Shown: positions 15,673 to 37,574 of the stretch, piece after piece | How positions within the stretch are numbered: the first letter of the stretch is position 1 | How the letters are laid out: each line of letters starts with the position of its first letter | NCBI GenBank assembly: GCA_012269745.1 | Contig: JAAXJR010000066.1 | Span: 1-53,885, forward strand | Source: Flavobacteriales bacterium | GTDB lineage: Bacteria; Bacteroidota; Bacteroidia; Flavobacteriales; Schleiferiaceae | Reading direction: 5' to 3' | Length of the DNA: 53,885 nucleotides | Made by a program: the position numbers and the translations under genes | The notes under the pieces: generated by a model | Database searches by the model: none | The model's input: only the letters and a program-made list of their open reading frames with translations | What the model was told of the DNA's origin: nothing

Positions 15673-15728
15673 GCATAAAAAAAGCCTTGATGCTGGGCAT
15701 CAAGGCTTTCCTTGTAGCGGAGGCAGGA
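15673..15728 (-). repeat. Duplicated terminator plus tRNA-fMet 3' tail (copy 1)
   Basis: This stretch repeats 15857-15913 with one substitution and one indel. It contains a terminator hairpin (arms at about 15684-15706, A-run on the plus strand) and the last 14 bases of the initiator tRNA (TCCTGCCTCCGCTA on the minus strand). The tRNA part is not a whole gene: the homology stops inside the T arm, where a dispersed palindrome begins. Confidence 0.85.
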
Positions 15729-15823
15729 TTGCCAACCTTGCTCCGCAAGGATTGGCGGACCTGTAGGGGGTGCTGAACAATGAAAAGAAAACCTTCGAGC
15801 GCATAGCGCTCGTTGTCTTTTTT
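15725..15823 (-). repeat. Palindromic element next to tRNA-fMet (copy A)
   Basis: Bases 15725-15762 match 35673-35710 in inverted orientation over 38 bases with two differences, both in the hairpin loop (arms CCAACCTTGC and GCAAGGATTGG). Further out both copies share an ACCCC block, a GC-rich hairpin (here CGAGCGC/GCGCTCG, 15796-15812) and AAAAAAGAC (15823-15815 minus strand). The element ends in the copied tRNA tail. Confidence 0.7.
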
Positions 15824-15829
15824 ATGCCA

Positions 15830-15854
15830 TGCACTTTTGTGCGAGCACAAGTGC
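15830..15854. repeat. Stem-loop between the duplicated terminators
   Basis: GCACTTTTGTGC and GCACAAGTGC form a hairpin around GAG. It lies between the terminator of tRNA-fMet and the palindromic element. Its role is unknown. Confidence 0.5.
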
Positions 15855-15860
15855 GGGCAT

Positions 15861-15894
15861 AAAAAAAGCCCTGATGCTGGGCATCAAGGCTTTT
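15861..15894 (-). terminator. Terminator of tRNA-fMet
   Basis: On the minus strand GCCTTGATGC, CCA, GCATCAGGGC is followed by a run of T. It begins six bases after the tRNA 3' end. A second copy with the same hairpin is at 15677-15709. Confidence 0.85.
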
Positions 15895-15899
15895 CCTTG

Positions 15900-15972
<73 letters not shown>

Positions 15973-35456: not shown

Positions 35457-35538
35457 GCGGATGTGGTGAAATTGGTAGACACGCTAGTTTTAGGCACTAG
35501 TGCTTTATCGCGTGAAGGTTCGAGTCCTTTCATCCGCA
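35457..35538 (+). tRNA. tRNA-Leu (UAG)
   Basis: An 82-base class II tRNA with a long variable arm (GCTTTATCGCG region). Acceptor stem GCGGATG/CATCCGC is perfect, anticodon loop TTTAGGC gives anticodon UAG, T arm GAAGGTTCGAGTCCTTT, discriminator A. CCA is not encoded. Confidence 0.96.
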
Positions 35539-35545
35539 CAACAAG

Positions 35546-35575
35546 AATCCCAACCTGAACAGGTTGGGATTTTTT
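35546..35575 (+). terminator. Terminator of tRNA-Leu
   Basis: AATCCCAACCT, GAAC, AGGTTGGGATT, then T-run; seven bases after the tRNA. Confidence 0.92.
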
Positions 35576-35615
35576 GTTTCTACCGAACTGTGTTTACTCA
35601 GGTGAGTGTAGAAGC

Positions 35616-35716
35616 AAAAAAGACTAAGACCGCGAAGCGGTATGGGATTCTAGTTGAATGCAACCCCACTTAAGGTCCGCCAATCCTTGCAAAGCAAGGT
35701 TGGCAATCCTTTCATC
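35616..35716 (+). repeat. Palindromic element next to tRNA-Leu (copy B)
   Basis: Core 35673-35710 is the inverted twin of 15725-15762 (36 of 38 bases equal). Before it come AAAAAAGAC (35616-35624), a small hairpin ACCGC-GAA-GCGGT and an ACCCCAC block, in the same order as in copy A. The element runs into TCCTTTCATC (35707-35716), identical to bases 35525-35534 of tRNA-Leu. The rest of 35717-35827 is AT-rich with no recognised feature. Confidence 0.65.
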
Positions 35717-35863
35717 TTCCGGACAATTTCTGTATTTGTTAAAATCACTGTGAGTCTAAAATCTTATGCTTTAGAACGTATAATCAATTTTTGGCAAAAC
35801 GATAGTTTCTCTAATTGAGAATGAAGATTGATTCACTATTTTAATTATAAAAAAAGAATTAAA

Positions 35864-36412
35864 GTGTCTGTAAGATTCACTGCAAACGAAATAAAAAGCA
35901 ACCTGAAGTTTCTCTTCACAGCGGCATTAATTATCTCCTTTATAACTTTCGTCTTGCAGATAGTTCTGATAAAGTATGAAAAGAAGTCAGAGCAAATATA
36001 TAATGAACTGAATAAGGCTGAATCAGAAATTAGCCAGTACAGGAATTTGATCTGGCTAACCCATAACTACTCCAACTCGTATTCTTCATCCTTTGCTAGT
36101 GAATACCAAGAGGTTTTGGAGTCTTTTTCCTCATCAAAAATTGACTTAATCCAGGAAGATTTCCCAAGAGTTCGTGCAGCCGTTGAAGGAATTGGCCTTG
36201 AAGAATACTTGATGAGACATGACCACAACACTTGTGTTTCTTTAATGTCAGATGCACGAAGATTTATTGAAGATTACAGGATAGCCAATAGAACTGAATC
36301 TATTGAGCTCCAAGCGAAGGTAGATGCAATCAACATGACTATCCTCGTGCTTCTATTAGTAATGACATTCTTCTTTGTGTACGTAATGATTTACGCATTG
36401 TATGGAAAATAG
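35864..36412 (+). CDS. Two-pass membrane protein, candidate sensor partner of the next kinase
   Basis: GTG at 35864 (182 residues) is used; TTG at 35828 in the same frame is possible. The protein has a membrane segment near residues 17-36, an extracytoplasmic helical part of about 115 residues with coiled-coil character (EQIYNELNKAESEISQYRNL), and a second membrane segment near 155-178, ending six residues later. This is the layout of a receptor's sensor module without any signalling domain. It overlaps the histidine kinase gene by 11 bases, so it probably works with it as a split sensor. Not a recognised family. Confidence 0.65.
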   Translation: MSVRFTANEIKSNLKFLFTAALIISFITFVLQIVLIKYEKKSEQIYNELNKAESEISQYRNLIWLTHNYSNSYSSSFASEYQEVLESFSSSKIDLIQEDFPRVRAAVEGIGLEEYLMRHDHNTCVSLMSDARRFIEDYRIANRTESIELQAKVDAINMTILVLLLVMTFFFVYVMIYALYGK

Positions 36413-37574
36413 ACTGAGGAAACTGACAATATCACTGATCGGTAGCTGCGCATTAATTCTCTTGTACGCCCTATACGAATCAGAAGCATTTGCTTGGGTA
36501 GTCCTCATAATTCCAGTGTCCATAACCTCGCATATGATAGCTCTTAGAAGCAATTATGGCAATTTAGTTCATACGGTCGCTGCAATACTCCTTGGGCTAA
36601 TAATCTTTATATCGTTTTCAGGTTATTTATGCGCAGCTCTATTATCCTTGTTCGCGGTAAAATTTAACTTCAACTATCGCCCAAGCTCCGTTCATCCGAG
36701 ATTGTTAATTGATAGAAGCCTTGGTCCCTTAATATTTACATTACTTCTGGTAGTTAAATTTGTTCTAATCTGGATGAATATTTCTTACGCTCATTATGAA
36801 GACAATATGAGCAATGAATCTATAATATTCTGGAGTTCAATTATATCCCTCGGGTTTTTCCATCATATTATTGTTGAATCAAAAAGAAATTATAATCATC
36901 TGAAGTATGAACTAGCGACCAAAGAAAAAAATTGGACCAACAACGTGATGACCTTGTTATCTCACAACATCAGAACACCCATTGCTTCAATGGGTAATAG
37001 AGTGGACATTATCAAACTCAAAAAAAGCGAGGGTATTGCAATTTCAGAGGAAGATATCGAATCACTAGTTGATGATAGGGAACGCATTAACAGTATTGTA
37101 CACGGTTTGCTGTCCAAGTCTAGTCGCAATATCATCTCTTCCAAAAACGTATCGGAATTATCAATTAATCAAGCGATTAATGAGTATGCCGACAGGGTGA
37201 AAATCACAAAGCCTGAAGGCATTGACTTTAATCTTAGCTCAAATGACAAGATTGCTCTTGATCTAGCTTTAGAATCTGTGATTAGTAATTCCGAAAAATA
37301 CGGTGCCTCTCACATTCAGATTACTTTGCGCGACAATGAAAACGAAGTTTCAATATCTGTCATTGACAATGGCGAAGGCATGAACTCTGAAACACTGGAG
37401 CGCTATGGCACTCCTTTTAATTCCTCTCAATCGAAAAAAGGAGGCTCGGGATTAGGGGTATATTTTGCCTTGCAGCTCGTAAAAGATGCAGGATGGCAAT
37501 GGTCGGCTGAAAGCTCATTGGGTAAAGGAACGACAGTCACATTCTCTATACCTAAGCAACTCTTAGTCCTCTAA
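36402..37574 (+). CDS. Membrane histidine kinase, orphan
   Basis: 390 residues: about five or six membrane segments to residue 157, then a HisKA-like helix pair with H188 in LLSHNIRTPIASM, N-box N296 (ESVISNSEKYG), G1 box DNGEG (322-326) and G2 box KGGSGLGVYFA (346-356). All elements needed for autophosphorylation are visible. The membrane part has no extracytoplasmic domain, which the overlapping upstream gene may supply. No response regulator is encoded in the window. Converges with the next gene, overlapping by 12 bases. Base composition is AT-richer than its neighbours, like the other two kinases here. Confidence 0.85.
   Translation: MENRLRKLTISLIGSCALILLYALYESEAFAWVVLIIPVSITSHMIALRSNYGNLVHTVAAILLGLIIFISFSGYLCAALLSLFAVKFNFNYRPSSVHPRLLIDRSLGPLIFTLLLVVKFVLIWMNISYAHYEDNMSNESIIFWSSIISLGFFHHIIVESKRNYNHLKYELATKEKNWTNNVMTLLSHNIRTPIASMGNRVDIIKLKKSEGIAISEEDIESLVDDRERINSIVHGLLSKSSRNIISSKNVSELSINQAINEYADRVKITKPEGIDFNLSSNDKIALDLALESVISNSEKYGASHIQITLRDNENEVSISVIDNGEGMNSETLERYGTPFNSSQSKKGGSGLGVYFALQLVKDAGWQWSAESSLGKGTTVTFSIPKQLLVL

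Follow-up and report, generated by a model that had tools for sequence, protein, structure and literature searches.

The tyrT repeats of Escherichia coli have been known since the 1970s, and we know of no settled explanation for them. They lie behind tRNA-Tyr (tyrV/tyrT) as units 178 bases apart (rtT RNA; Rfam RF00391, RtT), and each unit ends in GGTTC-hairpin-AATCCTTCCCCCACCACCA, the last 19 bases of which are the tRNA tail. The E. coli sequence is annotated as the ncRNA rttR, and excerpts of PMC4986893 report rttR as an RNA released from transcripts of tyrT and other tRNA operons. In the E. coli K-12 stretch (L223:2067-2237), the 3' end of rttR falls exactly at the CCA with which the tail copy finishes, and an upstream GGGGAAGGAT could pair with the tail's ATCCTTCCCC in a form that resembles an acceptor/T minihelix. 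More generally, tRNA genes are usual integration points in bacterial genomes. Excerpts of PMC4383910 and PMC1762012 describe tRNA and tmRNA targets and attB sites in the T-loop for integrative elements, and those of PMC4383910 (Islander) describe displaced tRNA tails as marks of island ends.

We analyzed a stretch of 53,885 nucleotides (the window), contig JAAXJR010000066.1 of the Flavobacteriales bacterium assembly GCA_012269745.1, in which an earlier note had described a palindromic element behind two tRNA genes. The 38-base cores are indeed equal in 36 of 38 positions, both mismatches being loop bases, and their orientation relative to their own tRNA is the same behind tRNA-Leu and tRNA-fMet. 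Both copies also share AAAAAAGAC (35616-35624), a GC hairpin (35629-35641) and an ACCCC block. Copies of the tRNA tails were confirmed as well: TCCTTTCATC at 35707-35716 for Leu, and 22 exact bases for fMet, followed by the terminator after one missing base. For the Leu tail, the last three bases (ATC) are absent in the relatives read, whose Leu copies retain TCCTTTC or less. The proposed extent of 101 bases proved too short. The palindromic core is the final part of an element of about 180 bases that begins at the tRNA 3' end and, at Leu, reaches the tail copy over about 178 bases. From tRNA end to tail copy, the folds are far more stable than those of shuffled sequences (z of -6.2 for Leu and -6.5 for fMet; 0 of 200 shuffles equal it). 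A strict two-arm pattern of the core occurs in this genome at these two places only (reversed-pattern controls gave 0), and each window copy is a single unit, no tandem array being found in the window. The parts of the two copies are as follows (R1 is a covariance model introduced below).

35457..35539, + strand: tRNA-Leu (TAG), the host gene (ARAGORN; Rfam RF00005)
35539..35552 (35539-35542 and 35544-35552), + strand: P1 5' strand, which pairs with 35653-35656 and 35643-35651 and covaries between relatives (fold)
35545..35580, + strand: tRNA-Leu's native intrinsic terminator, identified by eye; P2 is its apical part (sequence; folds)
35570..35621, + strand: P3, in which the T-run TTTTTTGTTTCTAC (35570-35583) pairs with GTAGAAGCAAAAAA (35608-35621) (fold; helix 3, 95.9% of cells paired)
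35629..35641, + strand: P4 hairpin, ACCGC-GAA-GCGGT, with a GNA triloop (fold; helix 5, double changes in 5/6 pairs)
35643..35656, + strand: P1 3' strand, complement of the bases behind tRNA-Leu (fold)
35657..35671, + strand: single-stranded linker AATGCAACCCCACTT (by eye)
35672..35711, + strand: T-arm mimic, AAGG-TCC-hairpin (35679-35704)-AAT-CCTT (fold; alignment A1)
35673-35710, + strand: 38-base core of the Leu copy, behind tRNA-Leu(TAG)
35707..35716, + strand: tRNA-Leu 3' tail copy TCCTTTCATC (sequence; tail matching)
15899..15972, - strand: tRNA-fMet, host gene of the second copy (ARAGORN)
15764..15898, - strand: P1-P4 and linker of the second copy, with trailer, terminator, T-run/A-run stem, GAGCGCTATGCGCTC hairpin and ACCCCC linker (sequence; R1 match 15720-15899, E 1.5e-14)
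15724..15763, - strand: T-arm mimic of the second copy, CAGG-TCC-hairpin (15756-15731)-AAT-CCTG (pattern search, sequence, fold)
15725-15762, - strand: 38-base core of the fMet copy, behind tRNA-fMet
15677..15728, - strand: complete tRNA-fMet tail copy and a second terminator copy (sequence; 22-base exact match)

The element thus consists, in this order, of the tRNA's own terminator, segments of P1 and P3 complementary to the sequence on either side of that terminator, P4, a linker, a split T-arm and the tail copy. In the Leu copies, the bases directly behind the tRNA pair with a segment about 110 bases downstream to form P1, which encloses P2, P3, and P4. P2 corresponds to the top of the native terminator. 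P3 pairs the T-run of the terminator and the bases that follow it with an A-run segment, and its loop is frequently G-CTTG-C. P4 is a small hairpin; an origin of P4 as an inverted, folded-back copy of P2 was rejected, the two having no resemblance by eye. An unrestrained fold of the fMet copy retains the terminator hairpin in place of P1, so P1 and the full terminator are alternatives at this locus. C-rich linkers are also seen at several other tRNAs, though not at all of them (by eye). The second T-arm reads GG-TYC-hairpin-AAT-CC and is followed by a copy of the own tRNA's tail that varies in length (up to 59 bases). Its stem is short, with a 3' strand identical to the 3' T-stem strand of the tRNA, and its loop is divided by a central hairpin into TYC (or ATC in some other copies) and AAT. 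Alignment A1 shows GTCC.CCA to be invariant and A.TCC almost so. We consider this anatomy well supported. The stem, the unpaired 3+3 spacer (TCC/AAT), the bulged base and the variable terminal hairpin seem to resemble a folded integron attC site, whose box consensus, however, does not fit the Bacteroidota element.

RNAalifold gave a poor consensus on the mixed alignment A1, so the covariance model (R1, 182 positions) was built from the seven tRNA-Leu copies of alignment A2. The sequences in A2 diverge while the pairs are kept: 93.2% of cells are paired versus 84.2% after shuffling, with a structure derived from folds of the same sequences, so that the slid control flatters it. Double changes were found in 19 of 55 pairs, against 9.9 ± 1.9 in shuffled alignments, and none of 500 shuffles reached this value; the weakest covariation measure (further pair types) was reached by 17 of 500.

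How does the element compare with tyrT/rttR? Both form tandem units directly behind a tRNA that carry its 3' part, and the E. coli units agree with the element in the split T-arm and in its AATCC boundary. They differ by a larger hairpin and, by eye at the single E. coli locus read, by having no P1/P3 complement wrapped around the terminator. RF00391 gave no match in the Bacteroidota sequences tested (including five element loci) and four matches in the E. coli K-12 stretch, where R1 scored at most 4.7 bits. We file the element as one that works like the tyrT repeats and has a defining part in common with them, by homology or convergence, RtT membership being unproven. The suggestion that the element is undescribed therefore stands only in part: the E. 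coli repeats have the same 3' end, while for Bacteroidota we found no description of such repeats in the titles and abstract openings that searches of an open-access collection brought up. Of Rfam 15, only tRNA scored above the gathering threshold in the window and ten element loci.

We then asked how widely the element occurs. Searched with the strict core arms, as the earlier note had proposed, relatives rarely have it (3 of 25 genus genomes and 3 of 88 family genomes). The structured element, however, is widespread across the class, and we reject the view of two isolated copies in one strain. R1 matched 23/25 genomes of the genus (E<=1), 58/88 of the family, in 14 of 19 genera (E<=0.01), 58/395 of an order draw (E<=1e-4), 80/395 of a class draw, in 51 of 197 genera (E<=1e-4), and 13/395 of a phylum draw, including four genomes of one family outside the class; the draws overlap, the filters are strict and the model narrow, and some share of the matches are terminator pairs. 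Indeed, R1 also picks up ordinary terminator pairs (L096) and its own palindromic shadow on the opposite strand.

Copies were expected behind tRNA genes, mostly with the tail of their own tRNA, and this is what most of them show. Among 84 genus entries (one place being listed twice, and shadows and most tandem neighbours inside fetched loci being left out), 68 lie directly behind a tRNA, two within 600 bases and five behind tmRNA. The other nine are behind neither by ARAGORN: five have a tRNA- or tmRNA-like 3' end by eye, and the remaining four are a displaced copy, a terminator pair, one entry after an apparent 5S rRNA and one core only. The class search added 19 new loci, 17 directly behind a tRNA and two within 400 bases of tRNA-Met, and all four loci outside the class are behind tRNA-Ser genes. 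Across the survey the hosts amount to some 18 tRNA types plus tmRNA, the element being seen behind tmRNA genes at L081, L131, L135, L138, and L097. In the genome of the window, inspection found it at six of 29 tRNAs (fMet, Leu-TAG, Gln-TTG, Cys-GCA, Ser-TGA, and Arg-ACG, the last missed by R1), with four of the 29 too close to a contig end (within ~100 bases) to be judged; its tmRNA gave a weak R1 match (E 0.1).

The elements are also tailored to their own tRNA. The comparison drew on every fetched stretch and covered 186 distinct tRNA loci, a set that model hits bias and in which related loci are unweighted; 115 were element-like and 71 other by fold energy, T-run and A-run only. The element-like class is crude and probably includes some wrongly assigned loci (e.g., a Gly-GCC locus before another tRNA). 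At the element-like loci, the match to the own tail averaged 6.05 bases versus 3.35 for the tails of other tRNA types, and it exceeded that mean at 94 of 115 loci; at the 71 other loci it averaged 3.48. The specificity of the tail is one of averages, since a mean of 28% of other tRNA types match the tail region as well as the own tRNA does. For the trailer, the longest Watson-Crick helix with P1b averaged 8.69 base pairs with the own trailer and 5.20 with those of other tRNAs (higher in 103/115), against 5.28 at the 71 other loci; at elements, 18.5% of other trailers pair equally well. An own anchor, A[AT]T plus two 3' T-stem bases, was present 125-230 bases downstream at 99 of 115 loci (18 tRNA types) versus 23 of 71 others. 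The longest tail copies include the trailer and measure 59 bases (Arg-TCT, L123), 58 (Arg-TCT, L083), and 55 (Gln, L106); others measure 22 (fMet, window), 18 (Ser-GGA, L091), 7-12 (most Gln), 10 (window Leu), and, in many cases, at most 7.

To follow one host gene through the genus, the orthologous tRNA-Leu locus was located via a neighbour gene, present in 22 of 25 genomes. By eye, a diverged element is found in 13 of these, a partial one at a contig end in three (L049, L050, and L059) and none in six (L045-L048, L055, and L057). The edges of the element-free Leu locus of G011 are blurred, and the fMet locus of G014 seems to retain part of P3; from their sequence, these absent sites look more like deletions than like clean pre-insertion sites. 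The element at a given tRNA is thus mostly inherited vertically, with compensatory changes that resemble long-term function. The earlier idea of a miniature element that targets tRNA tails is supported as far as the link to the tail goes; active movement is not, the copies being mostly inherited and no linked recombinase being seen.

Some loci carry several units. Tandem Repeats Finder reported 27 rows with periods of 115-181 at 25 of 196 distinct tRNA loci scanned. Four arrays with periods of 169-172 begin within the tRNA, 14-19 bases before its end (L210, L245, L252, and L266), at the AAT of the T-loop or three bases further on, one 172-bp array starting at the T-loop AATCC; of the other 23 rows, 15 start 35-87 bases behind the tRNA (P3 or P4) and eight further on, the phase of such start calls being arbitrary. 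In the genome of the window, a second unit begins at the Gln copy (L169, G000:C66) and then runs into an assembly gap of Ns. Several genus contigs also stop close to these tRNAs, which is what one would expect of assemblies broken by arrays.

The two window copies had been taken for independent cases, a claim that comparison with relatives calls into question. In its 5' part, the window Leu copy is like the G007 Leu copy (96/114), whereas its core is like the window fMet core (34/36) and less like the G007 Leu core (29/39); the G012 and G003 cores are of the G007 type (37/39). Because the 5' part is G007-like and the core fMet-like, the 36/38 identity looks like a core exchange between the Leu and fMet loci and not like unrelated insertions, in one case examined, where such short sequences may also have converged.

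Taken together, these results lead us to favor, tentatively, the view that the window Leu copy belongs to a family, spread across Bacteroidota, of palindromic DNA repeats that are linked and tailored to tRNAs, are multiplied and lost via exchange at the T-loop, and have a symmetry that matters at the DNA level. A full unit would have a T-loop at either end and would read, in order, AAT-CC, tail, trailer and terminator (P1a, P2, P3a), P3b, P4, P1b, linker, GG-TYC, and hairpin, and then the next AAT-CC. Units would multiply or be lost by recombination, or by copying with strand exchange, at the T-loop sequence that tRNA and hairpin-split T-arm have in common, much as a minimal repeat targeted to tRNAs would do (by Campbell-like insertion or by tandem duplication). 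The strong dyad symmetry would act in DNA, either through hairpins that form where single strands are exposed or through cruciforms. We infer that recombination is responsible, that the active form is a DNA hairpin and that the host may benefit. Several observations speak against this reading. Insertion of a ready-made unit would hardly produce P1 and P3 segments tailored to each tRNA's trailer. Moreover, we saw neither a recombinase nor a transposase linked to the units, inheritance at a given tRNA is mostly vertical, and absent sites are deletion-like.

It is possible, if doubtful, that these repeats are part of a general class of tRNA-parasitic or tRNA-guarding microrepeats of ~120-180 bp across Bacteroidota, which would replicate or recombine at the T-loop as folded single-stranded DNA, with inverted segments adapted to the host trailer and terminator and with hairpin cores exchanged, and of which E. 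coli tyrT would be a member. The same ending in a little understood E. coli repeat may point to a general, overlooked kind of tRNA-linked DNA. A widespread family with a tyrT-like split T-arm turns a one-locus curiosity into a question for comparative genomics and simple experiments: why does the T-loop bound the duplication, and why do hosts retain a second, hairpin-split T-arm? There is also a warning for annotation, as the tail copies of such elements can be mistaken for island ends.

Alternatively, the element may be a structured RNA: a readthrough transcript of the tRNA gene would fold into a four-way junction and a T-arm mimic, and would either influence how tRNA 3' ends are processed or be released as a small RNA, as with rttR. 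We consider this unlikely, although much is consistent with it: the element lies on the tRNA strand, mostly directly behind the tRNA, its folds are very stable (z to -9.9) and covary, and its E. coli counterpart is annotated as an ncRNA that excerpts of PMC4986893 report as a released RNA. However, the units sit behind the tRNA's intrinsic terminator, and the wobble pairs do not behave as in tRNAs. G-T pairs in elements numbered 484/7773 on the sense strand and 555/7853 on the antisense strand, whereas control tRNAs had 354/3089 versus 143/2791; another selection gave 203/3735 versus 228/3749. The sense-strand excess present in tRNAs is therefore absent from the elements, which favors a role at the DNA level over one in RNA. 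By tRNA type the picture in the latter selection is mixed: Cys favors sense, Leu-TAG and Ser-TGA antisense. A first wobble test had been positive for RNA function (101/2363 versus 47/2261; Wilcoxon p 1.6e-5), but it was biased because its elements had been chosen by a sense-strand pairing criterion that accepts G-T, and the signal was lost in independent selections; we rejected it. The loops are a further point against RNA, with GNA in 56 of 117 triloops and no UNCG among 108 tetraloops, though 22 of these are GNRA. GNA triloops are known from very stable DNA mini-hairpins (GCGAAGC hairpins). As evidence for DNA these loop types (GNA, G-CTTG-C) are weak, for they can also be stable in RNA.

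Could the element simply be a terminator or an insulator that serves as a fail-safe barrier, in both directions, between neighbouring genes and a highly transcribed tRNA gene, with the T-arm copy a by-product of tandem duplication? The element does wrap the native terminator, P3 pairs the T-run with an A-run, and an antisense T-run lies behind P4. Such a module nevertheless leaves unexplained the linker and a hairpin-split T-arm mimic, with the tRNA's own 3' stem strand, that is kept after the remaining tail has decayed, and tRNAs of the same genome such as Val, Lys, Ala, Asp, and His have terminator-like hairpins without the element, so we hold this explanation to be distinctly unlikely.

It is quite improbable that the units are what remains of tRNA-targeted integrase islands after shrinkage, with the tail copy as the displaced tRNA fragment. 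Like tRNA- and tmRNA-targeted integrative elements, the unit has a duplicated tRNA 3' fragment that starts in the T-loop, and displaced tails mark island ends in the excerpts of PMC4383910. Unlike them, it is ~180 bp long, too short to hold a gene, has no integrase (none by eye in the ORF lists around both window copies), is tailored to the trailer, forms tandem arrays and a covarying fold, and carries a hairpin inside the second T-loop. Independent remnants would hardly have one folded architecture at ~18 tRNA types in many families. A phage or plasmid origin was rejected: the strict core was not found in viral contigs, and the Leu copy, the only query, had no match in phages and plasmids at blastn sensitivity. 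In G022, an apparent serine recombinase fragment does overlap tRNA-fMet, with a core and fMet tail farther downstream. In G019, however, a complete element comes after an end sequence that G022 also has, so the island appears to be distinct from the element.

In more detail, the G022 locus (L010:2531-3040) carries behind tRNA-fMet a 169-aa fragment that resembles the C-terminus of a large serine recombinase (by eye) and ends in the tRNA-derived AEAGLEPTTFGL. Further downstream, several ORFs, including one that looks like a beta-lactamase (by eye), lie between two hairpin cores that carry fMet tails. The end sequence that G019 has in common with G022 (GGCCTTACCGG..TTCGACCTTTTC; L009:58-330) is followed by a complete fMet-type element that lacks a tRNA, which suggests from the sequence that an island was inserted between tRNA and element in G019. 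A serine recombinase island as the cause of the element was rejected, the G022 fragment looking like a separate island at the same tRNA.

Movement of the element by a RAYT (Y1) transposase is hardly credible: as with REP/REPIN sequences, these are short palindromes in several copies per genome, but they are bound to tRNA genes and not scattered, and RAYT (PF01797) is found in only 1/25 genus genomes, being absent from 24, the genome of the window included, against R1 matches (E<=1) in 23/25.

Two ORFs of 194 and 390 aa follow the Leu element in the window (35828-37574), the latter resembling a histidine kinase. The sequence directly behind the element in G007 and G012 differs from that of the window, so the downstream side of tRNA-Leu varies between these genomes.
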